Part shown: one piece after another, positions 1,590-16,715 of the stretch
How the letters are laid out: each line of letters opens with the position of its first letter
How positions within the stretch are numbered: position 1 is the first letter of the stretch
Assembly (NCBI GenBank): GCA_015222855.1
Contig: JADFWA010000113.1
Location: forward strand, 1 to 16,715
Length of the DNA: 16,715 nt
Source: Pseudomonadota bacterium
GTDB lineage: Bacteria > Desulfobacterota > Syntrophia > Syntrophales > JADFWA01
Direction of reading: 5' to 3'
Made by a program: the position numbers and the translations under genes
The notes under the pieces: generated by a model
What the model saw: the letters and a program-made list of their open reading frames with translations, nothing else
Database searches by the model: none
Told to the model about the DNA's origin: nothing

Positions 1590-1655
1590 TTTTTATTCTC
1601 TTTTGGTCAAGGTTTGCGGGTCATTACTCACAGCAGAAAGGAGGCTGTGCTCCCG

Positions 1656-2732
1656 TCATGGCAACAGAGGAACCTTTTTCCAGCCGTCACTCTGCGTGAA
1701 CTCTCGGGAGGCAAAGCACCAGATGACGAGCTTCTTCGTCTTCCAGTAATGGGGATCCCGCTGGGCTCTCCGCAGCAGATTTACGCGGGCCGACGTGGCG
1801 CCGGAACCGCGCACGGCGGCCAGATCCACCGGAAAGCCCAGTTCCATGGCCAACTGATCGGGCAGGCCTGCATCGCGGGTCTGCATGTCCTCTCCAGCAT
1901 GGAAGACGAGATTGTGGCTGTCACCGACGAGAAGGACCGGGCTTTTCCGATCGGGGACGATCGATTTCAGGGCCCCCACGCTTCCTGTACCCACCTGGCG
2001 GACCGACAAAATCTCCTGGTGAAGGTTCTTGTCCTCCAGGGCCTTCCAGAGATCCCCTTCAATGGGCAAGAACTTCCAGGCCGTCAGGTAGGCCGACCTG
2101 GGGATCGTCTTCAGCCAGGGCCGGCCTTGAATTTCCTCATGAATCTTCCGGGCGGCCAGAACACAGCCATTCCCCGACCAATGGGTGTCCTGTTTGCAGA
2201 ATAGGACACCCTCCCGATGAAAACGATTGGACAGAAAGAAGAATGTCAGGTCGAGAACCTGAATGCCCTCTTTCCGCAGAAGCTGATAAAAAGCCTGCGA
2301 CTCCGTATCGATGCGCACAGGTGGATTTTCATGGGAAATCAAGAGCTTATCAGACAGAAAATCGGGATACACGACGCTTTTGGGAGGAATGGGCACCAGG
2401 AGCAGCTCGACACCCATCTTTTTCAGCTGATGGTAAAAATCGACGATGGCGGGAAGTGGATCGGCAAATTCGAGTTTGGTCGCCTTGCTGACCTTCGCGG
2501 CCGCTTTTCCCCAGAAGCGCCCCGCCGATACGAAACGCAGTTCCGGACCGAAGAAGAGCCATCCCTCCTTGCCTGGAACAGTTATGGTTCGCCGCTGCTC
2601 CGCCGATTGAGCCAGGGAGGCATACTGATCGATCACCTTTCGGACTATATCCGCCTCTGCGGCGAAAGATGTCATGGCAATCCCCCAGAAGCCGATACCG
2701 ATTAGGATTGTATAAAAACATTTTCTTTTCAT
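1656..2732 (-). CDS. AlgX/AlgJ-like SGNH protein, putative periplasmic polysaccharide O-acetyltransferase
   Basis: A 358-residue protein with an N-terminal signal peptide (basic MKRK, hydrophobic core, probable cleavage after SFAA near residue 25). It carries the two motifs typical of AlgJ/AlgX/DHHW proteins: DTHW (182-185), supplying the catalytic Asp and His, and GDSH (270-273) with the nucleophilic Ser. In alginate and related systems such proteins take acetyl groups delivered through AlgI and place them on polysaccharide hydroxyls in the periplasm. An in-frame GTG at 2744 would add four residues, but AGAGG directly abuts it; the ATG at 2732 has better spacing and starts at the basic signal sequence. 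It follows the larger AlgX-like gene by 34 bases. The two proteins share motifs but differ greatly in length, so they look like specialised paralogues rather than a recent duplication. The glycan acceptor is unknown. Confidence 0.9.
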   Translation of the reverse strand: MKRKCFYTILIGIGFWGIAMTSFAAEADIVRKVIDQYASLAQSAEQRRTITVPGKEGWLFFGPELRFVSAGRFWGKAAAKVSKATKLEFADPLPAIVDFYHQLKKMGVELLLVPIPPKSVVYPDFLSDKLLISHENPPVRIDTESQAFYQLLRKEGIQVLDLTFFFLSNRFHREGVLFCKQDTHWSGNGCVLAARKIHEEIQGRPWLKTIPRSAYLTAWKFLPIEGDLWKALEDKNLHQEILSVRQVGTGSVGALKSIVPDRKSPVLLVGDSHNLVFHAGEDMQTRDAGLPDQLAMELGFPVDLAAVRGSGATSARVNLLRRAQRDPHYWKTKKLVIWCFASREFTQSDGWKKVPLLP

Positions 2733-2766
2733 CCTTTTTTGCACCTCTTCCCAAAGAATCCGTATT

Positions 2767-4488
2767 TCACTTTTTCACGGCCTCGCCCCAGCAGGGCTCC
2801 GCAAGCTGGAGGGCGGCATCATCCAGTTCGGTGCGGTTGATCCCTTCATACCGATCCGCCACATCGAACCAGGCCATCAGACGGAGTGTCACCGTCTCAC
2901 CTGGCCGGTACCGCGCCGCCGCCGTCCAGACATTGTCCGTCATGCTTCTCATATAAACCACCGCATCGGTCTCGGCAAGAGGGCGGCTATCTGTTTCCAT
3001 GTCCGTCAGGTGGATCGCCATGACATGATCCTTATAGGCCACCGAACCCGGCCTCGGCACAGCAGAAACCGCCTCGATTTTTCCACGGACAACCTTTTCT
3101 CTTCCTGACGGAATCGCCAGATACTTCAACGGTGGAGGAACGCCCAATTTCAGGTCGATTCGTTTCCAGTTCCCCACGGCCAGTTCCCGGATGGCGAACT
3201 GATAGATCACCAGACGTTTTCCTGCCAGACGATCCCGCCCCCGGGCCAGTTCGCCAGCCAGGATCTTCCGCACAGCAAAGGCGCCATTATCGTTGCGCGA
3301 GATGCGATCCAGCGGCCGCTGTAGGGCAAAGCTGAGCTGTTCGATGAAGCCGGCCCCTTCACCCCATCCCATGGCCCCAAGAGAATAGATGTTGCTGAAA
3401 CTGTCGCCGAGCACGAGCACATCCGCCGTCTTCTGCGATTGCCAAGGTTCTCCCCCGGCCCCAAAAACTTTTCGGATTGTCACATTCTCCAGCGGAAAGA
3501 CACGCTGCTTCTCAGGCAAATTCAGCATGACGGCCAGATCGCCGAGATTGGTCACCACGGATCTTTCCGCACGGTAGTTGGATGGAGACAACCCGGGGAG
3601 GGAAATATGCTTCCGAATAAAATCTGTTAGCTTTTCCGCCGCTAATTCCACAGCCTCGGGACGCCAGTGGGTATCGACCGCGAGATACTGTTCCTGACCG
3701 CCCAGTGTTTTCGCCCTCATTAGTATTGGTGCCACATCGAAAACGAGAACGCCATCGCGTTTCATTTCCTCCTTGAAACGTTCATAGGAAGGGTTCTGCA
3801 GTTCCGTCTGCCGTTGACCATAGCGATGGGTCAGCTTCTCCGGATGAATCATGGCCTTGATAGGCGTCGGCATAATGATCAGTGCAATCCCCCGCTGTGA
3901 AAGCTGCTCACGCAAATGCAGGATCGCTGCCCGCGGATCTGGCTCTGTTGGTGTAGCCCATTCATTGCCCCCCACTGCGCGCTTCTGCAACTGAACGGGA
4001 TGGAGAAAAGGCAGTCCTGACAGATAATCGACGCCGGGTCGGTAAAAGAGCCAAGGCTGCTCGCCGCAGTAAGCCTTTTCGTTACCCGCGCCGAGCCAAG
4101 CCGTCAGGACATACTGAATCTTGGGACGAGTCCATTTCCCGATGACAGAATGATCATCCAAGGCCTCTTCAAACCCTTTCATCCCTTTCAAAAGAAAGCG
4201 GTTAACCACAAAAACGCGCGCAAGGATGCCGGATGATCCTGAATCCCCGGACGCCTTTAACGCCGCAGGAAAGAGGGAAAAAACATCATAGAGCTGCGGC
4301 AGAATGGAACGCCTTTCCCTTGCCGCATAATCCCTGAACTCCGAGATGTGCTGAAATAGGGGAATAGAAAGAATGACGAGCAAAAACAAAATTATCAGAC
4401 ACCAAGAAATGGCCGGGCGTACCCGGGTGTGCCCCACTTCTCTTCTCGCTATTTCCTCCCGCTGCTTCTGAAGTTCCCAAGCGCTCAT
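2767..4488 (-). CDS. AlgX-like SGNH O-acetyltransferase with extra C-terminal domain
   Basis: A 573-residue protein with one membrane segment near residues 27-47 after a basic cytoplasmic start, so the bulk should face the periplasm. The SGNH acetyltransferase-like domain spans roughly 130-450: a buried strand IALIIMPTP (201-209), the catalytic pair in DTHW (272-275) and the serine motif GDSFS (361-365). Residues ~466-573 form an additional domain that resembles the last ~105 residues of the propeller-like protein encoded at 5961. The family completes AlgI-dependent acetylation of exopolysaccharides. The ATG lies 10 bases after the stop of the MBOAT gene, strongly implying co-transcription and a joint function. 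AlgX proper carries a carbohydrate-binding module at its C-terminus; whether this domain plays that part is only a guess. Confidence 0.92.
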   Translation of the reverse strand: MSAWELQKQREEIARREVGHTRVRPAISWCLIILFLLVILSIPLFQHISEFRDYAARERRSILPQLYDVFSLFPAALKASGDSGSSGILARVFVVNRFLLKGMKGFEEALDDHSVIGKWTRPKIQYVLTAWLGAGNEKAYCGEQPWLFYRPGVDYLSGLPFLHPVQLQKRAVGGNEWATPTEPDPRAAILHLREQLSQRGIALIIMPTPIKAMIHPEKLTHRYGQRQTELQNPSYERFKEEMKRDGVLVFDVAPILMRAKTLGGQEQYLAVDTHWRPEAVELAAEKLTDFIRKHISLPGLSPSNYRAERSVVTNLGDLAVMLNLPEKQRVFPLENVTIRKVFGAGGEPWQSQKTADVLVLGDSFSNIYSLGAMGWGEGAGFIEQLSFALQRPLDRISRNDNGAFAVRKILAGELARGRDRLAGKRLVIYQFAIRELAVGNWKRIDLKLGVPPPLKYLAIPSGREKVVRGKIEAVSAVPRPGSVAYKDHVMAIHLTDMETDSRPLAETDAVVYMRSMTDNVWTAAARYRPGETVTLRLMAWFDVADRYEGINRTELDDAALQLAEPCWGEAVKK

Positions 4489-4498
4489 AAGTTTCCGA

Positions 4499-5956
4499 TC
4501 AAAAAATAAAGTAAATGAATGGGTTGTAAGACTGCGTCATCAGAACCACAATGGAAATCAGCAGTGCCAGAGCAATCGGCACCACCTTCCATTGGGGAAT
4601 CGTCCGCGTCCAGTCCCAAGTCTGCGGGCACCCCCAGACAATCAATGCCGCCAGACTGAAAGTCCCCCAATAATAGGGCTGATAAAGAATACCGCCCAAT
4701 AGGCCGGCGCCGTCCTGAACGGTTGTCAGACCGAATAGACTTCCAAGGTAGGCCAACGCCGACGGCAGATCAGCCGCCCTGAAAAATACCCAGGCCATGA
4801 GTACAATGAAGAAGGTCATGGCCACCCGGCAAGGTCTGGGCATCCGGCGGTAAAAGGCGTTTTTACCATGCACGCGCTCCAGAACCAACATGCCACCGTG
4901 GATCCCCCCCCAGATGACAAACGTCCAGGAGGCCCCGTGCCAAAGCCCTCCCAGAAGCATCACGACGGCCAGATTGAAGTAGGTGCGCCATACACCTTTC
5001 CGGTTGCCCCCGAGTGGGACATAGAGATAATCCCGCAGCCAGGTAGAAAGCGATATGTGCCATCGGCGCCAGAATTCTGTGATGGACTGCGAGAGATAGG
5101 GGGAATCGAAGTTTTTCGGAAAAACAAAACCAAGCATCAGCCCCAGACCGATGGCCATATCGGAATAGGCGCTGAAATCGAAGTATATCTGAAAGGCATA
5201 GGCGGTGAGGCCGTACCAGGCGTCCAAGACGCCGCGGGACCCAGCATCGAAAACCACATCGGCGATCTTCCCGCAAGGGTTGGCCAGCAAAACCTTTTTC
5301 GCCAGGCCGAGACTGACGAAAGCTACGCCCCGGGAGAATTTCTCGACCGTGTGGGTCCGGTTGGTCATCTGGTCGGCAATCTCCCGGAATCGGATAATGG
5401 GGCCGGCCACGAGCTGGGTAAAAAGGGAAATGTAGCAGGCAAAATCGATGAAATTGCGCAGCGATTTTGCCTGACCACGGTAAACATCGATGGTATAGCT
5501 CAGTAATTGGAAAGTGTAGAAACTGATGCCCAAGGGCAGGGTAACGCGGAGCACCGTCTCTAATTTCAGTCCGGACAGTCCCAATCCGTGAATCAGGAAA
5601 TCGTAATTGTCCACGGCAAAATTGAAGTACTTAAAAAATCCCAGCATGGAGAGACTTGTCACGACGGAAACGGAAAGCCAGACTTTTTTCCGATGCAGGC
5701 TGACGCCATCCAACTCCGGATTTCCTGAAAGCGCGGATCCCGCTATCAGCCGTTCACCGGCGATTTTCAGACCGCACACATAACTGATCAGCGTCGAGGT
5801 CAGCAACATGACAACAAACAGGGGATTCGCCCAGCCGTAAAAACCGTAGCTCAGAAGCGTCAGGGCCAAGTGCCGGCCCCGGCGGGGCAGTCCATAGTAA
5901 ACGGCAAGTGTCAGGGGCAGAAAATAGAATAAGAAAATCTGAGAACTGAATACCAT
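4499..5956 (-). CDS. AlgI-type MBOAT family O-acyltransferase
   Basis: A 485-residue polytopic membrane protein of the MBOAT family, close to the usual AlgI length. Diagnostic features are FWRRWHISLS (295-304), the following RDYLYVPLGGNR stretch (308-319), and the two conserved histidines in GLWHGASW (337-344) and in WGGIHGG near residue 353. AlgI-like proteins pass an acyl group, normally acetyl, across the inner membrane to periplasmic AlgX/AlgJ partners. The two downstream genes here encode such partners. An open frame continues to 6001, but MVFSSQIFLF is the typical family start, and the ATG at 5956 lies 4 bases after the stop of the preceding gene, indicating translational coupling. No alginate backbone gene (alg8, alg44, algE) is visible, so the modified glycan is probably not alginate. 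Confidence 0.96.
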   Translation of the reverse strand: MVFSSQIFLFYFLPLTLAVYYGLPRRGRHLALTLLSYGFYGWANPLFVVMLLTSTLISYVCGLKIAGERLIAGSALSGNPELDGVSLHRKKVWLSVSVVTSLSMLGFFKYFNFAVDNYDFLIHGLGLSGLKLETVLRVTLPLGISFYTFQLLSYTIDVYRGQAKSLRNFIDFACYISLFTQLVAGPIIRFREIADQMTNRTHTVEKFSRGVAFVSLGLAKKVLLANPCGKIADVVFDAGSRGVLDAWYGLTAYAFQIYFDFSAYSDMAIGLGLMLGFVFPKNFDSPYLSQSITEFWRRWHISLSTWLRDYLYVPLGGNRKGVWRTYFNLAVVMLLGGLWHGASWTFVIWGGIHGGMLVLERVHGKNAFYRRMPRPCRVAMTFFIVLMAWVFFRAADLPSALAYLGSLFGLTTVQDGAGLLGGILYQPYYWGTFSLAALIVWGCPQTWDWTRTIPQWKVVPIALALLISIVVLMTQSYNPFIYFIF

Positions 5957-5960
5957 AAGA

Positions 5961-7478
5961 TCAGTTTCGCAACTCGTAGTAGAGCCGCAGTTTGAATTCA
6001 TCGCTATCCATGATCAGCCGCTCTCCTTCCAACTCGGGATGGTCGTCGTAACGCTCCAAGACCATCCGGTAGATTTTGCCCTTTTCCCGCTTTGCGTCCC
6101 TGTGAACTCGCCCGTCCTCAATCACCCAATGGGCGGCCATGATTTTCTTCCGGCGATAAGAACCGGAGACCACCCGGACGACTTCATAACCATTGACCAG
6201 AAGCGCGCACTTATAGGGGGCAATGTCCTGAGGAGTGGGAACGCCAGAAAGATCCGTCAAACGGGCTTCGACCACCACGCGTTTTATGGTTTTTCGCGGG
6301 GCAATAGCCTTTCCCGGATCGGCAAATGCCGGTACTGTTTTCGCCTTTTTCGAACTGGAGACTTTTACCGGATTCTGTTTCGCGCCTTCCGCGGATGCCA
6401 CCCAGACATCGGGGAAAAAGTCTGCCTGGTCGTTTGTGGTTACCCGCCACCAGGACTCGATCTTCGTGAGACCGGCATTGAACCGGCCGACATAAATCTC
6501 CACTGCAGGACCGCCCCCGGCAATGCGGTTCGCTCCCAAACCCACCTTATATGGCCCCGTCATCGTCATAATCCGGTGATGGTTGCTCCACCGGGGATGG
6601 TACACTTCATGGCCGTCTATCCCCGGGGCGCCGTTGATCCTGACCTGCCATTTTCTTTCATTTTCCTGATTCACGAGGGTCAGATTCCGGTGTGCGCCGT
6701 CGAAGATCCAGAAAAAATATTTGCCCTGTACAGAGGTAATCGACGTCCAGCAACCTTTGGCATAGAGCTTCATCGACCGGTTCGGCAGTTGGGCAACACC
6801 ACCGTCGGGCCAGGGGAAAAGCCCTCCCGCCATACGACCGTCTTCAGACAACTGAAAACTGTTCACGCTCACACGCGTCCTGTTCCAAATCAACTCCCCT
6901 GCACCGGGACTGTCCAACAGTGTCCGATATACCACCGGACAATACTCCGCCCCTTTCTCCCCCTCCTCCGGTCCATAATACATCCACTCTCGTCCATCCT
7001 GAGGGTCCCGCCACAACACCAACCCAACACCACCAAACAACTCCCTCAATCCCGAGCCGTCCCAATTCACCACATAAATCTTCTTAAGCGAACGATCCGT
7101 AAAGACCACACGGTTCCCGGGCGGTGTGATCAAGGGCTTCGCGTAATTTCTCGGCGTCCCACAAATCACCCGCTCTCCCTGCCCGTCGCCCGTATCCAAA
7201 CCCATCAAGCGTAAACTTGTGCCTTGTGCAAACACATCACGACCATCGCCCATATCCTGAACCCACACAATCCGCATGCGGGCGTTGCCCGCAACGGACC
7301 GTTCAGAGGCTGCGGCATTTTTGCTTACAGACGCGGGGTTAGCCCAAACCTGAGTCGACAGGCTCAACAGCATGACAACTGCAATGTGAAAAAAAAATGG
7401 GTTTATCGAGATTCCATCGAGGAATCTTCTGATAAATCGGGCTGTGGCCCTATCCCGATTTTTGATATTTAAGATCAT
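5961..7478 (-). CDS. Secreted propeller-like protein with C-terminal domain shared with the AlgX-like protein
   Basis: A 505-residue protein from the ATG at 7478. Residues 1-46 look like a long signal peptide: basic start, hydrophobic run from ~27 to 42, cleavage motif VWA before NP. The mature part holds repeated short beta-strand units with TolB/PD40-like flavour (RIVWVQ, NRVVFTD, KKIYVVNWDGSG, HPRWSNHH), suggesting a six- or seven-bladed propeller, although blades cannot be counted reliably by eye. The last ~105 residues are a separate domain with SGVPTP, PYK, HWVI.DG and YDDHPELEGE, matching in pattern the C-terminus of the AlgX-like protein. Its stop lies 4 bases before the MBOAT start. 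I infer a periplasmic accessory role in glycan acetylation or binding; no enzymatic motif is seen. An upstream extension to 7688 would translate a palindromic repeat and is rejected. The ribosome site (GGAG, ~13 bases upstream) is distant, so the start is moderately certain. Confidence 0.82.
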   Translation of the reverse strand: MILNIKNRDRATARFIRRFLDGISINPFFFHIAVVMLLSLSTQVWANPASVSKNAAASERSVAGNARMRIVWVQDMGDGRDVFAQGTSLRLMGLDTGDGQGERVICGTPRNYAKPLITPPGNRVVFTDRSLKKIYVVNWDGSGLRELFGGVGLVLWRDPQDGREWMYYGPEEGEKGAEYCPVVYRTLLDSPGAGELIWNRTRVSVNSFQLSEDGRMAGGLFPWPDGGVAQLPNRSMKLYAKGCWTSITSVQGKYFFWIFDGAHRNLTLVNQENERKWQVRINGAPGIDGHEVYHPRWSNHHRIMTMTGPYKVGLGANRIAGGGPAVEIYVGRFNAGLTKIESWWRVTTNDQADFFPDVWVASAEGAKQNPVKVSSSKKAKTVPAFADPGKAIAPRKTIKRVVVEARLTDLSGVPTPQDIAPYKCALLVNGYEVVRVVSGSYRRKKIMAAHWVIEDGRVHRDAKREKGKIYRMVLERYDDHPELEGERLIMDSDEFKLRLYYELRN

Positions 7479-7539
7479 GTTTAATCCATTGCTCCTATTT
7501 ATAAGCACGACATTATCGTAAAAAGCTCCGCTATGCCGA

Positions 7540-7569
7540 CCTGTCTGCGTGCGGGCACGCACAGGCAGG
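7540..7569. repeat. Short GC-rich palindrome
   Basis: The bases CTGCGTGC and GCACGCA face each other around a short GG centre, flanked by CCTGT and CAGG arms, giving an imperfect hairpin of about 30 bases. It lies in the spacer between the C-methyltransferase and the propeller gene, 35 bases from the second palindrome. It could act as a transcript-stabilising or terminating hairpin, but no clear T-run follows on the minus strand. Similar short GC hairpins are often dispersed intergenic repeats. Confidence 0.55.
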
Positions 7570-7604
7570 CACGTAGGCATTATAATTGAAAATAACTTGT
7601 TTAA

Positions 7605-7678
7605 GTCATTCCCGCGAAAGCGGGAATCCAGAGGGAAATGAGCAAAAAACTGGATTCCCGATTGGAGTCGGGAATGAC
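7605..7678. repeat. Palindromic dispersed repeat (MITE/REP-like)
   Basis: A 74-base element starting GTCATTCCCG and ending CGGGAATGAC. The left arm contains its own small hairpin (CCCGC-GAAA-GCGGG), then AATCCAG; the right arm starts CTGGATTCCCG. Terminal GTCATTCC/GGAATGAC and inner AATCCAG/CTGGATT are inverted relative to each other. A divergent copy lies at 13636-13704 inside the larger element. Repeats of this form are widespread in intergenic DNA of several proteobacterial lineages. It lies between the methyltransferase stop and the propeller gene and may separate two transcription units. Confidence 0.8.
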
Positions 7679-7728
7679 AAAATGGCAAAAAATCCGACTT
7701 TTTAAGGAGCCGTCAATTATCATAAAAA

Positions 7729-8955
7729 TTAAATTATGTGTACATGGGGAATGGGAACGATGAAGCGTCCGCCCCACTCCCTGATGTATCCCATCTGTTC
7801 GATTATTTCCTCTTTGATATTCCAGGGAAGGATCAAGACATAATCCGGTTTGTCCTCCCGGATCTGGTCAGGGTGCTTGATCGGAATGTGGCTTCCCGGC
7901 AGATAGCAGTTCTGTTTATGAGGACTCCTGTCGACGGTATAGTCCAGAAAATCCGTCCTGATCCCGCAGTAGTTCAGGAGTGTGTTCCCCTTGGCCGGCG
8001 CGCCGTATCCGACAATCTTTTTTCCCTCATTCTTGAGACCAATGAGATGTTGCAGAAGATTGCGTTTAACCGATTGGACCTTCTGGTGGAAAGTCAGATA
8101 GTGGTCAACATTCCCATACCCTGCGCTTATCTCTCTCGCCTTGAGTTCAACCACGCGGGGGGAAAGAGATTTGCTTTGATCCTCGTCATGCGCTGCATAA
8201 ATCCGCAGAGAGCCACCGTGGGTCGGCAGCTCCTCCACATCAAAGATTGTCAGTCCGTGCTCCCTGAATATCCGTTCAACCGCAAGAAACGAGAAATATG
8301 AGAAATGCTCATGATAAATCGTATCGAACTGGGTCTCCTCCATTAATCTGGCCAGATGGGGAAATTCTATGGTGATCAGCCCATCGGCCCTCAAGACTGT
8401 TTTCAATCCCCTGATAAAATCGTTCAGATTGGGATTGTGAGCCAGGACGTTGTTCCCGATAATCAGATCGGCCTGTTTACCATTTTGCCGCATCTTCTCG
8501 GCATAGGCTTGGTCAAAAAAGGCGATTTCCGTTGGGATGCCTTTTTCCTGCGCCGCATGGGCCGTATTGGCCGCTGGTTCGATGCCGAGAACGGGTATGT
8601 TGTACTTCTTGAAATACTGCAGGAGATAGCCGTCGTTGCTCGCAATCTCGACAACAAATTTCTTCTCATTCAGACCGAACCGTTTGACTACCATATCAAC
8701 ATAATGCTCGCAATGCCTGAGCCAGCTATCCGAATAGGAAGAAAAATAGGCATATCCGGTATGGAAAATGTCTTTTGCCTTTTCAAATTCCTCAAGTTGA
8801 ACCAGCAAGCAGTTTTCGCAAACATAAACATCCAGTGGATAGTAAGGCTCCATCTTGTGGAGATCATCCACGCTGAGATATGAATTTGATAGGGGAGACG
8901 CACCAAGAGACAAAAAAAGATGGCGAAGGGGTGTATTACAAAACCGGCATTGCAT
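7729..8955 (-). CDS. TylCIII/TcaB9-type sugar C-methyltransferase (SAM-dependent)
   Basis: A 408-residue protein with the three-part architecture of NDP-hexose C-methyltransferases. An N-terminal zinc-binding module has Cys3, Cys6, Cys46 and Cys49 (CRFC and CENC). A Rossmann SAM-binding domain carries VVEIASNDGYLL (101-112) and the NNVLAHNPN stretch (168-176). The YHEH motif (214-217) matches the catalytic tetrad region of TcaB9. A C-terminal second Rossmann-like domain has GYGAPAKGNT. The family methylates C3 of a 4-keto-6-deoxy sugar nucleotide. With rfbF and rfbG nearby, the likely substrate is CDP-4-keto-6-deoxyglucose or its epimer. A TTG at 8964 sits too close to GAGGAG; the ATG at 8955 is preferred. 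A decayed SDR gene lies directly upstream. Confidence 0.93.
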   Translation of the reverse strand: MQCRFCNTPLRHLFLSLGASPLSNSYLSVDDLHKMEPYYPLDVYVCENCLLVQLEEFEKAKDIFHTGYAYFSSYSDSWLRHCEHYVDMVVKRFGLNEKKFVVEIASNDGYLLQYFKKYNIPVLGIEPAANTAHAAQEKGIPTEIAFFDQAYAEKMRQNGKQADLIIGNNVLAHNPNLNDFIRGLKTVLRADGLITIEFPHLARLMEETQFDTIYHEHFSYFSFLAVERIFREHGLTIFDVEELPTHGGSLRIYAAHDEDQSKSLSPRVVELKAREISAGYGNVDHYLTFHQKVQSVKRNLLQHLIGLKNEGKKIVGYGAPAKGNTLLNYCGIRTDFLDYTVDRSPHKQNCYLPGSHIPIKHPDQIREDKPDYVLILPWNIKEEIIEQMGYIREWGGRFIVPIPHVHII

Positions 8956-9013
8956 GGTTTTCAAAACTCCTCTCGTAAAAAATTTGTTCAGCCTTATGTG
9001 TATAAGGTGACAC

Positions 9014-9411
9014 CTAAGCTCTGCAGACTATTGTCATCAAATGCCTGCTATTATATCGATATAATAGGAGATATGGTCCAACAAAAACAAAACAACGAGC
9101 TATCGTGGTTTCTTTATTCGCATAAACCGAACAGAGCAACTCAGCTATCTTTTTCCTTCCACCATACATTGATGCCTGATTTGCTATACTTGGAGCCCCC
9201 ACATAAGTTTCTAAAATATACCGAATTCAGGGGAGCTGTTTTCCGTAAACTGCATTGGAACTAGTTAATAAAAACTTTTGGAGCCCGCAGGAAACAGCAA
9301 CTCCAAAAACCAGTTCCACCGGTAATAAAATCTGTTACCACGCACCTCCTCCCACAAGCTATGCGTATGTTCTACTATATGTTCCAGATCATTTGTGAGT
9401 CTATTTTTCAT
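9014..9411 (-). pseudogene. Decayed NAD-dependent epimerase/dehydratase (WcaG-like SDR), candidate lost C4-ketoreductase
   Basis: No intact frame exists, but pieces of an extended SDR occur in the correct order in shifting minus-strand frames. From the ATG at 9411, NDLEHIVEHTHSLWEEVRG matches the usual lead-in of this SDR group. After a one-base shift near 9327 comes ITGGTG, the Rossmann nucleotide-binding loop. Next, in another frame and without the ~110 residues expected between them, comes CGLQKFLLTSSNAVYG (SDR serine region). After another shift near 9218, GAPSIANQASMYGGRKKIAE supplies the YxxxK-like region, followed by LLCSVYA and IARCFVFVGPYL. Homology then stops and the frame ends at 9014. 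It therefore has at least two frameshifts, an internal deletion and a missing C-terminus. Its place between rfbG and the C-methyltransferase suggests it once reduced the 4-keto sugar. I identified the family from motif memory, not a search. Confidence 0.82.
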
Positions 9412-9468
9412 GTTGGCATGAATTACGCCATTGACCGGTTATCTCCTCCAATATATTTGGATGCTTTA

Positions 9469-10542
9469 TCAAATCCTTATGTCGTTCATATATTGATCAA
9501 TTTGACTCTTACATATCTCGTATGAATTCTGATAGTTATATTTCTTATACCACTTAACTGTTTCTCCTACCGTTGTTTCAGCGTTCCAAACAGGCGACCA
9601 TTTTAAGTATGTCTTTGCTTTGGATATATCAAGATTCAACAGGTTCGCTTCGTGAGGTTCCTCTTGGTTAGATTTATCAATCCAGGAGCCGCTTCCCCAC
9701 TTTGCCACGATCATATCGGCTATCTCACCAACGGTTGTTATGGGATTCTGATTGGGGCCGAAATTCCAAGCACCACAAAATTTCTGCGGTTCTTCATACA
9801 TTTTAGATGCCAGTAATAAATATCCACTTAAAGGCTCCAATACATGCTGCCATGGACGTGTCGCATGGGGACGGCGTATTTCAATAGGCTTTTTACTTTC
9901 CAATGCCCTTACGCAATCTGGTATAATTCTATCTTTCTGCCAGTCGCCACCACCGATAACATTACCGGCTCTTACAGACGATAAGCTCTTTCCGTGTTTT
10001 TCAAAATCAATAGGATTAAAAAATGAATTCCTGTAGGCTGCAGTTATTAATTCAGAGCATCCTTTGCTTGAGCTGTATGGGTCATATCCCCCCATCGGAT
10101 CATTTTCACGATAGCCCCACACCCATTCTTTATTTTCGTAACACTTGTCACTGGTAACATTAATAACAACCCTGACTGAATCGGTTATATGACAACACTC
10201 CAGAACATTCACTGTACCGCCAATATTGGTGTCATATGTTTCCTTCGGGTTTACGTACGATTCCCTGACAATCGGCTGAGCCGCAAAATGAAACACAAAC
10301 TCAGGTCGATATTTTTTAAATGTTTCTCTTAGTTTCTGATAATCTCCAACATCCCCTATTATATGGATAATTTTATCTTTCAAACCACTGACTACGAAAT
10401 TGTCTCTTTCGGTATATGGTTCAAGGGCATACCCCACGATGTTGGCACCTAATTCTTTCAGCCAAATGCAAAGCCATGAACCCTTGAACCCGGTATGGCC
10501 GGTTATTAAAACTGTCCTGCCCTGAAACATGTTATCAAACAT
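9469..10542 (-). CDS. rfbG: CDP-glucose 4,6-dehydratase
   Basis: A 357-residue extended SDR of normal RfbG length. It converts CDP-glucose to CDP-4-keto-6-deoxyglucose using bound NAD. The nucleotide-binding loop GHTGFKGS is at residues 15-22. The catalytic region TSDKCYE, with Lys-Cys-Tyr rather than the TDEVYG of dTDP-glucose dehydratases, distinguishes the CDP-glucose enzyme; YDPYSSSK supplies the active-site Tyr and Lys. The HATRPWQHVLEPLSGY stretch is also characteristic of RfbG. The start is supported by AGAGG six bases upstream. The gene is more AT-rich than the rfbF-epimerase-peptidase block upstream. It lies 12 bases after the stop of a dead rfbF remnant, which looks like its original partner. 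Confidence 0.96.
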   Translation of the reverse strand: MFDNMFQGRTVLITGHTGFKGSWLCIWLKELGANIVGYALEPYTERDNFVVSGLKDKIIHIIGDVGDYQKLRETFKKYRPEFVFHFAAQPIVRESYVNPKETYDTNIGGTVNVLECCHITDSVRVVINVTSDKCYENKEWVWGYRENDPMGGYDPYSSSKGCSELITAAYRNSFFNPIDFEKHGKSLSSVRAGNVIGGGDWQKDRIIPDCVRALESKKPIEIRRPHATRPWQHVLEPLSGYLLLASKMYEEPQKFCGAWNFGPNQNPITTVGEIADMIVAKWGSGSWIDKSNQEEPHEANLLNLDISKAKTYLKWSPVWNAETTVGETVKWYKKYNYQNSYEICKSQIDQYMNDIRI

Positions 10543-10554
10543 AAAATACCTCTT

Positions 10555-10740
10555 TTATTCAAATTGCCAGGGAGCATAACCATTGTTCCAAGTGTCTTGA
10601 AGCAGCAAATAGTCGCGGTAGGTATCCATGCACTGTCAATAACCATGATGGTGATAGAGCATTAGCTCTCTGTCCCATGCAAGTTTTCCTAAAGGTTCTC
10701 CTTCCAGGATACAATCACTATCCACTGAAAGGTAATCAGG
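10555..10740 (-). pseudogene. C-terminal remnant of a second glucose-1-phosphate cytidylyltransferase
   Basis: Minus-strand translation from ~10740 to the TAA at 10555-10557 gives about 60 residues that align without gaps to the C-terminus of the intact RfbF encoded at 12678: PDYLSVDSDCILEGEPLGKL against FDYLNEADDCDLEYGPLEQI, then the shared MDT.RD and a final aromatic-rich end. At 10636-10638 the frame contains TGA exactly where intact RfbF has Trp in the GFW(S/Q)CMDT motif, a TGG-to-TGA change. Everything N-terminal of this is missing; the sequence runs straight into the 3' end of the peptidase gene. The remnant retains the close spacing to rfbG expected of an rfbF-rfbG pair. It is not a functional gene. 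Confidence 0.85.
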
Positions 10741-10753
10741 AGATTTCCTTTCA

Positions 10754-12088
10754 TCACCTCTCACCTGTCGATTCAACCTCTGTAAGTCGCAGAAGTTGGT
10801 GTTCCCGCAACGCCTTAGCGGCATTTCCGATCATAGTAAATTCATAGCCGGAACGGTCGGCAATGTCCAGCAATGAATGGCTGCCATCGGACAGGTTCAG
10901 CACCCACAGCATTGCCATCTGATCAAATCCTGTGTCCCGATCGCCGCCCATAAGGCGATAGAGCCCCCTTTTCCCGAGTTGGGGCTCGCATTTGGGATTC
11001 AGGTTCACATAGGTCCGGTTGTTTTCCAGCACCTGGAGAACGGCAAGGTATTTCTTAAAGGAATCAGCCAGTGATTCGGGACTCACGAAGTCAAGGTCAT
11101 CGGCAGAGGTGTGATACTGGGGATACTGTCCGTGCGGAGTTCTCATAAGACAACCGACAGGGAGGTCGAAGCCGGGCGAACCGTACTGTCTTTCATCATA
11201 GCCGTAGGGGAAAAAGTCTATTATCTCATAATCCTGCCCGGAATGCTTAAGGACATGGGCCACTGCCCTGTCTATCTCAGCATCTCCCTGCCTACTTTTT
11301 TTGTAGGTCGTCTTTCCCCGATCACCCACGCAGGCAACCACCAGACCATGCCGGATTCTGTAAACCCCAGACTCGTTGAGACAGAGCCAGGTAATGGAAC
11401 CGATCGTCCCGGGAATAAAAAGGAAACGGTAGGAATACCTTCGTGGTCGGGTACTGAGATGCTTGGCCAGGAAGGTAACTAGAGCCATACCGGAAAGATT
11501 GTCGTTACACAGCGATGGATGGCAGGCGTGACAGGAGATGAGCACCTCTCCCCCTTCGCTCCCCGGCAGATAATATTCACCGTAGGTGAGGTGTCCCGGC
11601 TCTAGAGAGCTGTCGATGCAGACCTCGTACAAATCATCCCTCATATTGAGCAGATCACGGTGACGCAGACAGAACCCCCAGGTTTCCTGGTAATAGGAAG
11701 TGCGATAGGGAATCCAGTCCGGATGTTCCGGAAGGGTGAAAAGGTGTTTTTTCAATTCCGGGAGCGACAACGTCGCCCTGACAGGGACGCTGTAACTAAC
11801 CACATGCAGATTCGACTCCCTGAAATCAATGACCCGTTCGCCCATGCTGTTTTTGACATATGCATCCCGGATGTTCCACTCTTTCGGAACGTTCCAGTCA
11901 AAGACCTTCGTTCCCGTCGGCACCTCGTGGATCTGCAGGGGAATATGGCCTGAAACCCTGGAGAGGGTCTCGCGGAAACCCGCCCCCGTTATGCTGCGAC
12001 ACAAAGGGTAAAGGTTCCGGGCAAACTCGTGCATCTGCCGACCGACAAGTTCCTGATCTATGACATGTGCCGCAAATTCCACGGACAA
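10754..12088 (-). CDS. DUF4910/DUF2172-type zinc aminopeptidase-like protein
   Basis: A 444-residue protein resembling the DUF4910 (aminopeptidase-like, M28-related) family seen in many polysaccharide loci. HACHPSLCNDNLSG (187-200) holds the His and Asp expected to bind zinc; FIPGTIGS (224-231), DERQY (298-302) and HTSADD (326-331) are further family motifs, the last supplying another likely ligand. Residues ~371-436 form a small helical/winged-helix-like tail. It has no signal peptide, so it is cytoplasmic. The true reaction in these loci is not established; action on an amide or acyl group of a sugar intermediate is conceivable but unproven. The start is a TTG at 12088, supported by GGGAGG eight bases upstream and placed 21 bases after the epimerase stop. 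The next ATG codon would remove conserved N-terminal residues. Confidence 0.88.
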   Translation of the reverse strand: MSVEFAAHVIDQELVGRQMHEFARNLYPLCRSITGAGFRETLSRVSGHIPLQIHEVPTGTKVFDWNVPKEWNIRDAYVKNSMGERVIDFRESNLHVVSYSVPVRATLSLPELKKHLFTLPEHPDWIPYRTSYYQETWGFCLRHRDLLNMRDDLYEVCIDSSLEPGHLTYGEYYLPGSEGGEVLISCHACHPSLCNDNLSGMALVTFLAKHLSTRPRRYSYRFLFIPGTIGSITWLCLNESGVYRIRHGLVVACVGDRGKTTYKKSRQGDAEIDRAVAHVLKHSGQDYEIIDFFPYGYDERQYGSPGFDLPVGCLMRTPHGQYPQYHTSADDLDFVSPESLADSFKKYLAVLQVLENNRTYVNLNPKCEPQLGKRGLYRLMGGDRDTGFDQMAMLWVLNLSDGSHSLLDIADRSGYEFTMIGNAAKALREHQLLRLTEVESTGER

Positions 12089-12109
12089 AGTATCAACCTC
12101 CCGAAGAAA

Positions 12110-12643
12110 TCAATCCCTGTAATCTGGCCAGTTCCGGTCCCGATCCGAAAGGATCGCCTGACCCTTGGCCGGCCATTGAATCCCGAAGACCGGATCATTC
12201 CAGCGGACGCCGCAGACGGATTCGGGATGGTAAAACTCGGACATCTGGTAGAAGATCTCGGTGTTGTCTGCCAAAGCTTGAAAGCCGTGGGCAAAACCTT
12301 TGGGGATGTAGAGCATCCGGCAATTATCCTCGGTCAGCTCCAGGGCGATCCATTGTTTAAAAGTCGGTGACTCTCGACGCAAATCTACAATCACATCATA
12401 CAGCCCGCCCCTGGTGCAGCGAACCAGTTTTTCCTCGGCATGGGGCGCCGCCTGATAATGCATCCCCCGCAAGGTCCCGGCATCCCGGTTGAAGGAGATA
12501 TTGCACTGCGCCACATCCGGATTCAATCCCATCTCGGTAAACTCATTGCAGCAGAAGGACCGGCCGAAAAAGCCCCTGTCGTCCTCCAGGCGCTGCACTT
12601 CGATAATGAAGGCCCCTGACAGTTTTGTTTCCCTGAAGATCAT
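12110..12643 (-). CDS. RmlC-like nucleotide-sugar 3,5-epimerase
   Basis: A 177-residue cupin protein of the dTDP-4-dehydrorhamnose 3,5-epimerase family, the usual length. It has the catalytic His in RGMHYQ, the PKGFAHGFQ segment, the Tyr region IFYQMSEFY and the C-terminal W.DP..GIQWP signature. RmlC enzymes invert C3 and/or C5 of a 4-keto-6-deoxy sugar nucleotide. Because rfbF and rfbG flank it and no rmlA, rmlB or rmlD is present, the natural substrate is probably CDP-linked rather than dTDP-linked; that is inference. The open frame extends to 12844 over the rfbF 3' end, but the ATG at 12643 matches the family start and has GGGCGG upstream. It follows the rfbF stop by 34 bases. Confidence 0.93.
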   Translation of the reverse strand: MIFRETKLSGAFIIEVQRLEDDRGFFGRSFCCNEFTEMGLNPDVAQCNISFNRDAGTLRGMHYQAAPHAEEKLVRCTRGGLYDVIVDLRRESPTFKQWIALELTEDNCRMLYIPKGFAHGFQALADNTEIFYQMSEFYHPESVCGVRWNDPVFGIQWPAKGQAILSDRDRNWPDYRD

Positions 12644-12677
12644 GACAACCGCCCTATGGCCCCGATCTTTATGCCAT

Positions 12678-13457
12678 TCATTCCCAGACTTTCCAGCCGG
12701 CTTTGCCCTCGTTCCAGAGTCTTTCCAGTTTCTGCAGGTCTCTGAGCGTATCCATACAGGACCAGAAGCCGGTATGTTTGTAAGCCATGAGTTGACCGTC
12801 CTCGACAATCTGTTCCAGCGGTCCGTATTCCAGATCGCAGTCATCGGCCTCGTTCAGATAGTCGAAAATCCGCCGGTTGAAGACATAATATCCACCATTG
12901 ATGAATCCTGGCATCTTGGGCTTTTCAAAAAATTCTACCACCTGGTCGTCATCAATCTTCAGCTCTCCAAAATAGGAGGCGGGACGCAAGACGCCGGTCA
13001 CCGTGACCATCTTTCCATGACGGGCGTGAAAATCGAGTAGAGCATTGATATTCACGTCGGACACGCCATCGCCGTAGGTTGCCATGAAAGTCTCGCCCTT
13101 GATAAATTTCTGAAGCTTTTTTAACCTCGCTCCTTTGAGAGATTTCTCACCGGTATCAGCTAAAGTGATCCGCCATCCCCCCTCTTCATGATTCTGATGG
13201 ATACAGACATTCTCCGGCTTTCCAAGTTCCATAGTAACATCATTGTTCATGAGCTCATAATGACAGAAATAATTCTTGATCATCTCTCCCCGATATCCCA
13301 GGGCCAATATAAAATCCTTATGACCGAAATGAACGTAATTTTTCATGATATGCCAAAGAATGGGCCGTTTACCGATATTCACCATCGGTTTAGGGCGGGA
13401 TACCGTTTCTTCCTGCAAACGGGTACCGGCGCCACCGCAAAAAATAACCACTTCCAT
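12678..13457 (-). CDS. rfbF: Glucose-1-phosphate cytidylyltransferase
   Basis: A 259-residue nucleotidyltransferase of normal RfbF length. It makes CDP-glucose from CTP and glucose-1-phosphate, the first step of CDP-6-deoxyhexose synthesis. The pyrophosphorylase signature GGAGTRL.EET..RPKPMV is at residues 8-26, followed by the TYGDGVSDV metal-binding region, the ASYFGEL stretch and the RfbF-specific C-terminal GFWSCMDTLRD. A strong AGGAGG site lies 11 bases before the ATG. It leads the rfbF-epimerase-peptidase block. Its dehydratase partner rfbG is separated from it by about 2.1 kb and by the remnant of another rfbF, an unusual arrangement for genes normally adjacent. Confidence 0.97.
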   Translation of the reverse strand: MEVVIFCGGAGTRLQEETVSRPKPMVNIGKRPILWHIMKNYVHFGHKDFILALGYRGEMIKNYFCHYELMNNDVTMELGKPENVCIHQNHEEGGWRITLADTGEKSLKGARLKKLQKFIKGETFMATYGDGVSDVNINALLDFHARHGKMVTVTGVLRPASYFGELKIDDDQVVEFFEKPKMPGFINGGYYVFNRRIFDYLNEADDCDLEYGPLEQIVEDGQLMAYKHTGFWSCMDTLRDLQKLERLWNEGKAGWKVWE

Positions 13458-13877
13458 GATTTTATAAGCCTCCTTTGAAGATTGCTGCGTGCTTCATATC
13501 ATGATCGCCCGGAAACAGAGATCTTTTCCCCAATCGACGCCAATCAGACAAGGCATTCAAAATCCTTGATGAAGGACTCTTATTTGAGGATATGTTTAAA
13601 AACAAAATGAGACCTTTGCATAACTCCCTTATTCATCATTCCAGTGAAAACCGGAATCCAGGAAGTCCTTGATAATACTGGATACCGGCCTTCGCCGGCA
13701 TGACATAATTGTTGGTTTTATTTAGTTGTGCAAAGGTCTCTAAGAGTCTCTGGATTTTTCTTTCCCGATATTTCATCAGTTCATAATGGTTGAGGCGTGT
13801 AAAGTGCTTTTCAAAGCCAACTGGCGGGACAAATCACGACCGGAGAAACCTTACGGCATCAAATCTGTTAATCAATA
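13458..13877. other. Gene-poor spacer between rfbF and the flippase-like gene
   Basis: These 420 bases hold no intact gene. The middle is occupied by the MITE-like element at 13609-13740. On the minus strand a frame with coding-like composition runs up to the element (through GFEKHFTRLNHYELMKYRER, about 13830-13745). Another begins just after it and ends with a TAA a few bases before the rfbF start (through DWRRLGKRSLFPGDHDMKH). I recognise neither. They could be the tail of a gene broken by the element, or chance open frames. No convincing promoter was found, although rfbF must be transcribed from here or from upstream. Confidence 0.5.
13609..13740. mobile_element. 132-bp MITE-like element with 17-bp terminal inverted repeats
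   Basis: The left end GAGACCTTTGCATAACT (13609-13625) is the inverse complement of the right end AGTTGTGCAAAGGTCTC (13724-13740) with one mismatch. The 132-base element has no coding capacity, fitting a miniature inverted-repeat element moved in trans by a transposase. Inside, at 13636-13704, is a palindromic repeat: CCGGAATCCAG facing CTGGATACCGG, plus a perfect small hairpin CCGGC-CTTC-GCCGG, related to the repeat at 7605-7678. I cannot see an unambiguous target-site duplication. The transposase family is not identifiable by eye. Confidence 0.75.
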
Positions 13878-14927
13878 TCAATTCATTTGTTGATAGTCAA
13901 GTAACTTCTGACGGTCAACCGTTCCTCCCATTAAAACAAACATACCTCCTATTAAAATAAATATCAGGTTAAAGGCAAGGAAAAGGGTTGATAAGATCAA
14001 CGAGCTTTCAGGCGCCACCTGGTAGTATTTACCGAGCAGATAAATAATACTTATGTCTCTAACGCCAAGCCCTGCAAAAGAAATCGGAAGCATTTGCACA
14101 AGATTGATTGCGCCAAGGAGCCATACCGAAACCTGGAACGGAAGATTGATCCCCACCATAATCATCAACAGGTAAGTAATTAATATCAGAAACAGGTGGC
14201 ACAGCATCGACATGCATACTGTCCATAATATCACGCCCAGATCAACATTGGTACAGGTGATCACGGAATCCCACAGCTTATTGCTCAGGTGGATCAGTTT
14301 GTTTCTCCAATTTCCAGCAGGTGTTATTTGTATGATCGCCCGGGAAAATTGTTTCATGATGGTCGCTGCCTTTGACGATACAAAGGGAATAAACATCAGC
14401 AAAAACAAAACAGCCAGGATGATAATATACACTCTCAGATTGATATCTATAAGCTTTTCTTCAAACACGAGTCCAATGGCGGTAAAAGCGATCAGAGTGA
14501 TAATGCTCATGAGTCGAAGGAATATAATAACAGACGCGGAAGCGGCCTTTTTCCCTGATTTGTCCGAAAGCATGTACCATGTTATCAGGCCGCCTGCCAG
14601 GTCGCCCGGCAGGACCAATCCGTAAAAAGATGATATCAACTGGACCTTGAAAACAAAATTTGTCCCCAACTTGCTGTTAAAAACCTGCTTGAAATAATAG
14701 TGGATCTGATAAGCGTTAAGATACCTGAAGATCAACGAGATTATCAGTAAATAAATGAACATCCAGGGTTGGACATATTTCAATGCGGATAGAAAATCAT
14801 TATACTGAATATACTTATAGAAGATATAATAAAAAATTGCGCCGGTTATAAGTAACTTCATGATGTTGAAAATCAACCGGTTCCGTTTTTTTCGATTGAC
14901 AATTATCTGGCCGTTATTCGTATGCAT
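13878..14927 (-). CDS. Flippase-like multi-span membrane protein (YbhN/AglD, LPG-synthase TM family)
   Basis: A 349-residue integral membrane protein with about eight hydrophobic spans, matching the UPF0104/LPG-synthase transmembrane family in length and layout. Family hallmarks are the LVLPGDLAGGLI stretch in the first third and, near residue 280, LPISFAGLGVRD, the P.S..GLG.R signature. Members occur widely in polysaccharide and lipid-glycan loci and are thought to handle lipid-linked substrates or modify lipids; the reaction is not known for most. There is no cytoplasmic synthase domain, so it is not an MprF-type enzyme. The gene is AT-rich like the glycosyltransferase upstream. Its ATG overlaps the end of a possible 47-codon ORF. 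Confidence 0.88.
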   Translation of the reverse strand: MHTNNGQIIVNRKKRNRLIFNIMKLLITGAIFYYIFYKYIQYNDFLSALKYVQPWMFIYLLIISLIFRYLNAYQIHYYFKQVFNSKLGTNFVFKVQLISSFYGLVLPGDLAGGLITWYMLSDKSGKKAASASVIIFLRLMSIITLIAFTAIGLVFEEKLIDINLRVYIIILAVLFLLMFIPFVSSKAATIMKQFSRAIIQITPAGNWRNKLIHLSNKLWDSVITCTNVDLGVILWTVCMSMLCHLFLILITYLLMIMVGINLPFQVSVWLLGAINLVQMLPISFAGLGVRDISIIYLLGKYYQVAPESSLILSTLFLAFNLIFILIGGMFVLMGGTVDRQKLLDYQQMN

Positions 14928-15057
14928 GATTGTTTAAAAGGGGTCCAAGCATTAAAAGAACCTGTCGCTTATCAAATGCAGCATCAATCTTCATGGGCTG
15001 GCGTGTCTTTTCTTTGCGTAAAGGTATGCGGCGGGGGGAATTTATAACCACTTCCAT
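14914..15057 (-). CDS. Possible small basic protein, 47 residues, unrecognised
   Basis: An ATG at 15057 with GGGG seven bases upstream opens 47 codons ending at the TAA 14914-14916, overlapping the first 14 bases of the flippase-like gene. The product is rich in Arg and Lys at the start (SPRRIPLRKEKTR) and hydrophobic later (VLLMLGPLL). It fills the gap between the glycosyltransferase stop and the flippase-like start, so it could be a translated leader that couples the two. I do not recognise it, and it may equally be a remnant or chance frame. Confidence 0.3.
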   Translation of the reverse strand: MEVVINSPRRIPLRKEKTRQPMKIDAAFDKRQVLLMLGPLLNNHAYE

Positions 15058-15087
15058 ATTCATCCCCTATTATCCTGGACTAAATAT

Positions 15088-16092
15088 TTAACCAATATAC
15101 TCAAAATCCCTTGCAAATGACTCCTGCCCAAAAACATACTTGAACACAAATCTTGTAAGAACCTGATTTTCAGCCATCATCATCAAGACGCGAAATCTTA
15201 TATCCCTTCTAAGCGAGTCATACACACTTATATCGTATTGTCTAAAATAATCGTGGAATTTTTTTTCCAATTCACGATTCTTAATAATAACAGCAGTTAC
15301 AAGATTTTTCGCAAAATACCTCTTCAGCATCAATTTTCGCCACTTCTCTGCAACCTCTTTGGAAAAAATTTCCTTTGTCAGAACATAACGGTATGGTGAT
15401 TCAATATATTCAATATTTGATATCAATTTATCAAAATCCTGTTTCATGGTTTCATTCTGACCATGTCGACGCCATACTCCGACAAATTCATTAATAAAAC
15501 CGATTTTGTGAGTCACAGTTAACCGTAATAAACTTTCCCAATCGGAACTGCGAATATCTTTTTCAAAAAAGCCTAATTTCATTGCCTCGTGACGATCATG
15601 GAGAACAGTTAGTGTAGGCAACGAATACCCTTTATAATAATTTAGAAAGAACCAGTTCCCATCCATGATTTGAGGTAGATTGCTGTTGACTTTATCTTCT
15701 ACGAAGAGATTTTCCTTCTCGTAAAATGCTTTTAGCCGTGAGAAGACCATCACCAATTGATGACGTTCCAAAAGATCGACCGCTTTGCTTATGTATCTAT
15801 TATCAATCAGATAATCGTCCCCATCCAGATGCAAGGCCAATTCTCCTGAAGAATACTCATAAAGTGCTTTTCTGGCATTGGCGATCATGCCAATATTTTG
15901 TTCGTTCCGAAAATATTTCAGACGCGAATCCTGAAGGTACTTATTCATTGTCAATTCAATCGGATCTGTCGAATGGTTATCGCTGACCACCACCTCCAGA
16001 TTCGGATAGTCTTGGGCCAACGCTGATTCTACAGCCTGGCCAATATAGTGGGCCTGGTTGTATACGGTAATCGCAATACTTACTTTTTTCAT
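15088..16092 (-). CDS. Family 2 glycosyltransferase
   Basis: A 334-residue protein with a GT-A domain at the N-terminus: IAITVYNQ (7-13), VVVSDNHSTD (34-43) and the metal-binding LDGDD (89-93), the standard order for GT2 enzymes that transfer a sugar from an NDP donor. The second half (W...LRL, GVWRRHGQNE near residue 210, then a basic helical tail) is typical of GT2 proteins in O-antigen and exopolysaccharide loci and has no membrane span. The start is supported by AGGAG about 10 bases upstream. The gene is AT-rich relative to sequence on its right. Acceptor and sugar cannot be predicted. Confidence 0.94.
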   Translation of the reverse strand: MKKVSIAITVYNQAHYIGQAVESALAQDYPNLEVVVSDNHSTDPIELTMNKYLQDSRLKYFRNEQNIGMIANARKALYEYSSGELALHLDGDDYLIDNRYISKAVDLLERHQLVMVFSRLKAFYEKENLFVEDKVNSNLPQIMDGNWFFLNYYKGYSLPTLTVLHDRHEAMKLGFFEKDIRSSDWESLLRLTVTHKIGFINEFVGVWRRHGQNETMKQDFDKLISNIEYIESPYRYVLTKEIFSKEVAEKWRKLMLKRYFAKNLVTAVIIKNRELEKKFHDYFRQYDISVYDSLRRDIRFRVLMMMAENQVLTRFVFKYVFGQESFARDFEYIG

Positions 16093-16134
16093 ACAAGGAT
16101 TCTCCTACTAAAAAACGACGCTGAGCAACTAGAT

Positions 16135-16150
16135 TCCTGTTTACACAGGA
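16135..16150. promoter_or_regulatory. Small perfect palindrome before the glycosyltransferase
   Basis: TCCTGT and ACAGGA form a perfect 6-bp inverted repeat around TTAC, about 45 bases upstream of the glycosyltransferase ATG. It could be an operator half-site pair or a leader hairpin. Six-base palindromes also arise by chance, so the functional claim is weak. Confidence 0.25.
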
Positions 16151-16187
16151 GTGATTATTTAAACTATTTACAGCAAAAATGAACTAC

Positions 16188-16205
16188 CCCGCCGCAAGCA
16201 GCGGG
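16188..16205 (-). terminator. Possible weak terminator hairpin after the methyltransferase
   Basis: On the minus strand CCCGC and GCGGG pair around an eight-base loop, followed about eight bases later by a short run of T. It lies about 190 bases past the methyltransferase stop and before the glycosyltransferase. The T-run is displaced, so termination would be weak if it occurs. Confidence 0.3.
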
Positions 16206-16393
16206 ACATCTTTAAGAGTATTGAACACTCAGGGGGCGAGGAATATAACCCTTTCTAAATTTAAAGCTATTTTCAAAGGTCTCGTCGCTAAAAACTGTCG
16301 CGGTGCCAAATAAGCCGCGAAATTCGAGTGGAAGTAGTCGAACCGCGCTTCGGCTAAAATTCGCCATCCCGAGTCCCAAGTATCCCGACCTCG

Positions 16394-16715
16394 TCAATCC
16401 GCGCTACGCGACACCAGAAAGACCTTCGACAGCGACCGATAGCTTTGCAGGGGTTGTGCGGATAACTGCGGATGTTCTTGAAGAAACTCTTCGAACGCGT
16501 CGTTCTGGCCACGATGTCCATCGCTTGTTGAACCCCAGTCATCGCAGATGACGATCGCGTGGTCTCGAATCAGCGGTTCGACATAGCGCAGGACATCGCG
16601 CGACGCTGAATAGGTGTCGCAATCAACCATGATCAAGCTTGCTTTATCCAACGCGAGGCGAATCTTAGTCTCTTCAGTGCACGTCTGACTGAACCAGCCC
16701 TCGACAAGCGTGACG
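16394..16715 (-). CDS. TylF/MycF-like SAM-dependent O-methyltransferase, N-terminus beyond window
   Basis: The last 106 residues of a minus-strand gene that enters from the right edge. VEGWFSQT, then LIMVDCDTYSASRD and later VICDDWGS reproduce the C-terminal half of macrocin-type O-methyltransferases, in which the aspartates of the D.D and DDW/DDY motifs bind the catalytic metal. The frame is open to the window end; an apparent start at 16651 is an internal TTG. Such enzymes methylate sugar hydroxyls in antibiotic and surface-glycan pathways, so it may modify the glycan made by this locus. The sequence is more GC-rich than the two genes to its left. Substrate unknown. Confidence 0.85.
   Translation of the reverse strand, partial: VTLVEGWFSQTCTEETKIRLALDKASLIMVDCDTYSASRDVLRYVEPLIRDHAIVICDDWGSTSDGHRGQNDAFEEFLQEHPQLSAQPLQSYRSLSKVFLVSRSAD

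Follow-up and report, generated by a model that had tools for sequence, protein, structure and literature searches.

The window, by which we mean the whole stretch of 16,715 nucleotides (contig C9; the draft genome to which it belongs has 1.9 Mb, 423 contigs and a completeness of 80.6%), holds the remnant of an SDR gene (SDR') between rfbG and a sugar C-methyltransferase gene (CMT). The remnant is probably a decayed passenger: a fragment with the layout rfbF'-rfbG-SDR', coming from another CDP-sugar operon, would have replaced the original rfbG. The cluster is transcribed from the minus strand in the order rfbF, rfbC, DUF4910 gene, rfbG, SDR remnant, CMT, gene 5961-7688, MBOAT acyltransferase and two AlgX-type genes. 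It was compared with G137, a draft genome (84% complete) from another family of the order, which has the loci L187 and L221 on one contig. The features are:

9062..9420, minus strand: SDR remnant (SDR'), split into three pieces that each have their own frame, in-frame TGA at 9227-9229, about 86 profile positions gone inside and 131 at the 3' end
9469..10542, minus strand: rfbG, CDP-glucose 4,6-dehydratase, intact (TIGR02622, 493 bits, cut-off 278), the sole intact gene of the putatively exchanged block
10564..10746, minus strand: rfbF', the 3' end of a second rfbF (profile positions 195-254 of 256), in-frame TGA at 10636-10638
8958..10749, minus strand: the putatively exchanged block rfbF'-rfbG-SDR', GC 0.40, outside the synteny with L187
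7729..8964, minus strand: sugar C-methyltransferase (CMT; Methyltransf_13/14), synteny with L187 picks up again at 8957
10754..12088, minus strand: DUF4910/DUF2172/HTH_47 gene (labelled M28), synteny with L187 stops at 10750
12110..12664, minus strand: rfbC-type sugar epimerase (dTDP_sugar_isom), start codon provisional
12678..13457, minus strand: rfbF, intact glucose-1-phosphate cytidylyltransferase (TIGR02623, 317.9 bits, cut-off 300)

The initial annotation had described a dead SDR gene in the gap that separates rfbG from the C-methyltransferase gene, and its presence was confirmed far above chance. Pfam Epimerase (PF01370) matched the minus strand at 9029-9307 with 27.9 bits (cut-off 20.9) and one TGA within, as expected for an extended SDR. 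A profile of the remnant's own SDR family (SDRr; 20 intact relatives, 354 positions) matched three pieces on the same strand, in order and each in a different frame: positions 5-35 at 9420-9328 (20.3 bits), positions 36-50 at 9329-9285 (7.5 bits) and positions 137-223 at 9313-9062 (81.4 bits). The best score in 60 shuffles (bases shuffled within 40-base blocks) was 1.8 bits. The search for SDR similarity that had been proposed for the fragments was thus significant, also for the best single relative, L159 (57% identity over 82 residues, E 1e-21). No full-length open gene is left, as 133 of the 354 positions are kept. Two of the proposed frame breaks, near 9327 and 9312, are indeed frame changes; near 9218 there is none, the lesion being the in-frame TGA. 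The gap within the gene is smaller than the roughly 110 residues first estimated, and the profile homology stops near 9062 instead of reaching 9014. A 3' tail at 8958-9060, suspected by eye, gave no match to the SDRr profile. The loss of 131 positions at the 3' end of SDR' and the second broken gene, rfbF', across rfbG from it, had both escaped the initial annotation.

In a draft as fragmented as this one (423 contigs), an intact SDR gene might in principle have been misassembled or misread. However, a single gene combines two shifts of frame, one TGA and the loss of about 86 positions inside and 131 at its 3' end, and the adjoining rfbF' is truncated and carries a TGA, yet the rfbG in between is open. 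We rejected error as the cause on the number and kind of these lesions and consider it most improbable.

The remnant had further been taken for the C4-ketoreductase of the window's own pathway. In that case, the reductase of the C-methyl-sugar pathway would have died in place, and the sugar would have to be completed elsewhere, have changed or be gone. This explanation agrees with the position of an SDR remnant between two pathway genes and with the failure to recognise an intact reductase in the window; it does not agree with the family of the remnant. Against the 81.4 bits for SDRr, the remnant scored −1.9 bits with the SDR family found after CMT in relatives (SDRn, a nine-row profile) and 0.5 bits with rfbG, and it lies upstream of CMT instead of downstream of the methyltransferase or rfbC gene, the position of SDRn. 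The loci compared were 120 rfbG regions, consisting of 80 named loci (the best 80 of more, picked by rfbG similarity) and 40 loci of the order, 18 of which had been fetched for holding SDRr; both samples are therefore non-random, and the SDRr family is known here from fetched loci alone. Using fixed score limits on these non-random loci, SDRr was found in 24 of the 120, with rfbH in 21 cases and with CMT in none. CMT was found in 12 (the window not counted): seven of them had SDRn, and SDRr and rfbH were both absent from all 12. In L035, rfbG, an rfbH-like gene, an NAD_binding_1-domain reductase (which we take to be E3), rfbF and SDRr are consecutive. Judging from such gene neighbours and from pathway chemistry, the intact SDRr relatives may act as C4-ketoreductases on a CDP-4-keto sugar, and so may the dead SDR once have done. 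SDRr was present at E <= 1e-60 in 18 of the 155 genomes of the order; at the same threshold, the genome of the window has no second, intact copy.

Relatives had been expected to show an SDR in the gap between rfbG and the methyltransferase gene. Neither L187, which is syntenic, nor L052, which is more distant, has one there, and the fetched stretch of L187 keeps rfbG, yet no SDRn was seen in it. Besides SDR', the block contains another truncated gene, rfbF', and an rfbG that looks foreign. A reductase that died in place is thus quite doubtful, and the family test and the syntenic comparison led us to prefer another main explanation.

The proposal that the reductase is elsewhere, that the sugar is different or that it is lost still stands: no intact C4-reductase gene was recognised in the window, and the last step must therefore be elsewhere, different or lost. 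A clear SDRn was lacking in both genomes (best scores of 80 bits in that of the window and 77 in G137, versus 274–426 for members left out in turn). This would suit a reductase that died in place, but the absence is weak because both genomes are drafts. An RmlD-type protein is encoded elsewhere in the genome, at a contig edge, beside pseudouridine synthase and phosphoglycerate kinase; nothing links it to the window's sugar pathway. Five CMT loci are without SDRn (L181, L193, L052, L106 and L187). L052 has an RmlD-type reductase after rfbC, the cluster of L106 is cut by the contig end, and neither a DegT-type aminotransferase nor an RmlD-type reductase was seen in the L187 stretch fetched. In the rfbF-rfbG-rfbC-CMT clusters of L181 and L193, a DegT-type aminotransferase follows CMT (L181:3635-4747 and L193:9662-10819) at the place of the SDR in others; their sugar may thus be a 4-amino variant.

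The second broken gene, rfbF', matched the rfbF profile with 58.6 bits. It was 45% identical to the intact rfbF of the window and up to 63% identical to the rfbF of L040, and a recent duplication of the window's own rfbF was rejected on these values. An rfbH end was sought upstream of rfbG, since L023 and L025 have rfbH there, but the stretch proved to be an rfbF end. The intact rfbF was also considered as a chimera; identity by quarters gave no clear sign of this.

Window positions 1650-12631 are colinear with that one contig of G137. The DNA identity was 81% to L221 at 1650-5625 and, to L187, 84% at 5125-5957, 75% at 5959-7270, 76% at 7743-8957 and 83% at 10750-12631. A first gap, 7271-7742, is mostly unmatched and has a repeat inside. 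The second gap, 8958-10749, is the block itself; L187 has here a different rfbG and a paralogue of gene 5961-7688. Around the block the proteins of the window and L187 are 78% (CMT), about 85% (M28) and 84% (rfbC) identical; the two rfbG proteins share 46%, and their DNA matches are scattered and up to about 100 bases long. The synteny stop at 10750 adjoins the start of L187's rfbG, and the homology to the rfbF end begins a few bases from the end of the M28 synteny. Gene order is thus kept while one gene, rfbG, is of differing ancestry, as in gene displacement in situ. The DUF4910/DUF2172/HTH_47 gene at 10754-12088 is embedded in the sugar operon. Its closest homologue among the 155 genomes of the order was found in G137 only (about 85–86%), three others reaching 43–45%. 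RpoB of the window's genome was 77% identical to that of G137; among the genomes from which named loci came (13, of which 11 gave a match), the closest RpoB was that of the L052 genome (69% over residues 133–1134).

Gene 5961-7688 is present as one copy in the window and as two paralogues in G137 (L187:973-2514 and L187:5343-6914), which flank the CMT region; Pfam gave no matches for the window copy or for L187:973-2514. Inside the listed start of this open reading frame lies an inverted REP-like repeat pair at 7605-7631 and 7650-7678 (GTCATTCCCG...CGGGAATCCAG), the pattern of which had 13 matches in the genome versus 0 for a reversed control. The true start of the frame is probably further in than listed. 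No RNA family reached its Rfam gathering score anywhere in the window.

The GC content was 0.40 in the block, 0.48 in CMT and 0.54 in M28 plus rfbC, and L187's rfbG (0.565) resembles its own neighbours (0.53–0.57). These values and the gene order in L187 and L052 favour the block as the newcomer; the composition of the whole cluster allows the reverse. With the roles swapped, parts of a C-methyltransferase cluster would have entered a resident rfbF-rfbG-SDR operon, rfbC and M28 at one flank of rfbG and CMT with what follows it at the other; the resident rfbF and SDR gene would have been cut in this way, while the resident rfbG was kept in use. In line with this, the cluster has a GC content of 0.48–0.55, above the 0.44–0.49 of eleven stretches elsewhere in the genome (three overlapping, one contig), positions 13458-16715 are as low (0.41) as the block, and MBOAT, M28 and rfbC are 84–88% identical between the window's genome and G137, more than RpoB. 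Given the higher GC content and proteins more alike than RpoB, the 11-kb cluster (1650-12631) may itself have been acquired, or exchanged between families. Swapped roles would, however, require two junctions between incoming and resident DNA, one at each side of rfbG, so placed that the L187 order M28-rfbG-CMT is preserved, and no chimera is visible in the intact rfbF. We regard this course as unlikely, though worth bearing in mind; the block is the likelier newcomer, although which DNA was resident is less certain than the exchange itself.

The affinity of rfbG points away from the order. Among the best 80 named loci, its best matches were L023 and L025 (72%) and L024 (70%), all with rfbH. 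At E <= 1e-90, rfbG was found in 37 of the 155 genomes of the order, the window's own included, and the best of the other 36 was 57% identical; among 395 genomes of the phylum, the own genome alone had a match at E <= 1e-150. An rfbG tree was made with 117 rows (four loci were left out, rfbG being too short). The window fell in a set of 29 (SH-aLRT 97) that contains 0 of the 38 rows of its order, with L023, L025 and L024 as the nearest rows (support of the joining fork, 81); the rfbG of L187 is on a long branch and its placement is unsure. The rfbG genes of methyltransferase clusters did not form one group. The CMT label changed 11 times on the tree, a number equally low in 37 of 500 label shuffles; it is thus scarcely clustered, so that cluster type and rfbG ancestry are loosely tied. 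Cluster-type labels changed 34 times; rfbG seems to have switched from one type of cluster to another on more than one occasion. Tentatively, rfbG could be a module that distant bacteria trade among operons for 3,6-dideoxyhexoses and for C-methyl-hexoses, and where both neighbours are broken, as here, the scars could serve to count and orient such trades.

For the passenger explanation, we propose that incoming DNA, which began within an rfbF, spanned a whole rfbG and ended inside an SDR gene, displaced, presumably in a single event, the rfbG that had formerly separated the DUF4910 gene from CMT. The product of rfbG is a 4-keto-6-deoxy intermediate common to both kinds of operon, so that the rfbG of one can serve in the other. 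The new rfbG would take over the step with which both pathways begin, CDP-glucose to CDP-4-keto-6-deoxyglucose, and be retained, and the rfbF end and the SDR part would decay as passengers, because an intact rfbF already lies upstream, the SDR belongs to another chemistry and the window has no rfbH. The association of SDRr with rfbH and of SDRn with the methyltransferase, and the break in colinearity with L187/L221 just at 8958-10749, argue for this, as do the composition of the block, the likeness of its rfbG to those of rfbH-type clusters and the truncated rfbF' at the edge of the M28 synteny. On the other hand, a donor with rfbF, rfbG and SDRr in immediate order was not found among the loci compared: in L023 two genes separate rfbG from the SDR, and the SDRs closest to the remnant (L159 and L160) are outside the clusters with the closest rfbG. 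The fork to L023–L025 has a support of 81 only, and the long branch of L187's rfbG also counts against it, as do the scatter of the rfbG genes of methyltransferase clusters over the tree and the loose tie between cluster type and rfbG ancestry.

Among known clusters, those of the type rfbF-rfbG-rfbC-CMT-SDR (L103, L104, L105, L178, L188 and L029), the product of which is presumably a C-methylated 6-deoxyhexose, share the core gene families of the window. Their SDR is of the other family and follows the methyltransferase gene, where the window has none. In clusters with rfbF, rfbG and rfbH, of the 3,6-dideoxyhexose type (L023, L035 and L159), lie the intact SDR genes most closely related to the remnant, and in L023 also one of the closest rfbG genes; in contrast to these, the window is without rfbH and its SDR is dead. 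A dead gene between pathway genes need not mean a lost pathway step; here it more likely marks a gene exchange, the limits of which are closely marked by two broken neighbours. The structure of the sugar, or its loss, should not be read off gene order alone.

Overall, the locus is a clear new case of something already known, the displacement of a gene within an operon. Displacement in situ leading to mosaic operons is described in PMC1779527 (citing Omelchenko et al. 2003), and PMC8987622 served as general background. As in those mosaic operons, one operon gene has a different ancestry and the gene order is kept; unlike in them, the displaced gene is still flanked at either end by a truncated passenger, which makes the limits of the exchanged piece visible. 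In Salmonella O-antigen clusters, according to PMC3715488, 3,6-dideoxyhexose genes have been exchanged and wzy remnants are left. That paper describes well-marked junctions between blocks of different origin, as in the window, and gene remnants shortened by serial deletions are a further likeness. The Salmonella exchanges took place within one species, whereas the clusters compared here come from separate families, and what is left beside the exchanged rfbG is part of an SDR gene.
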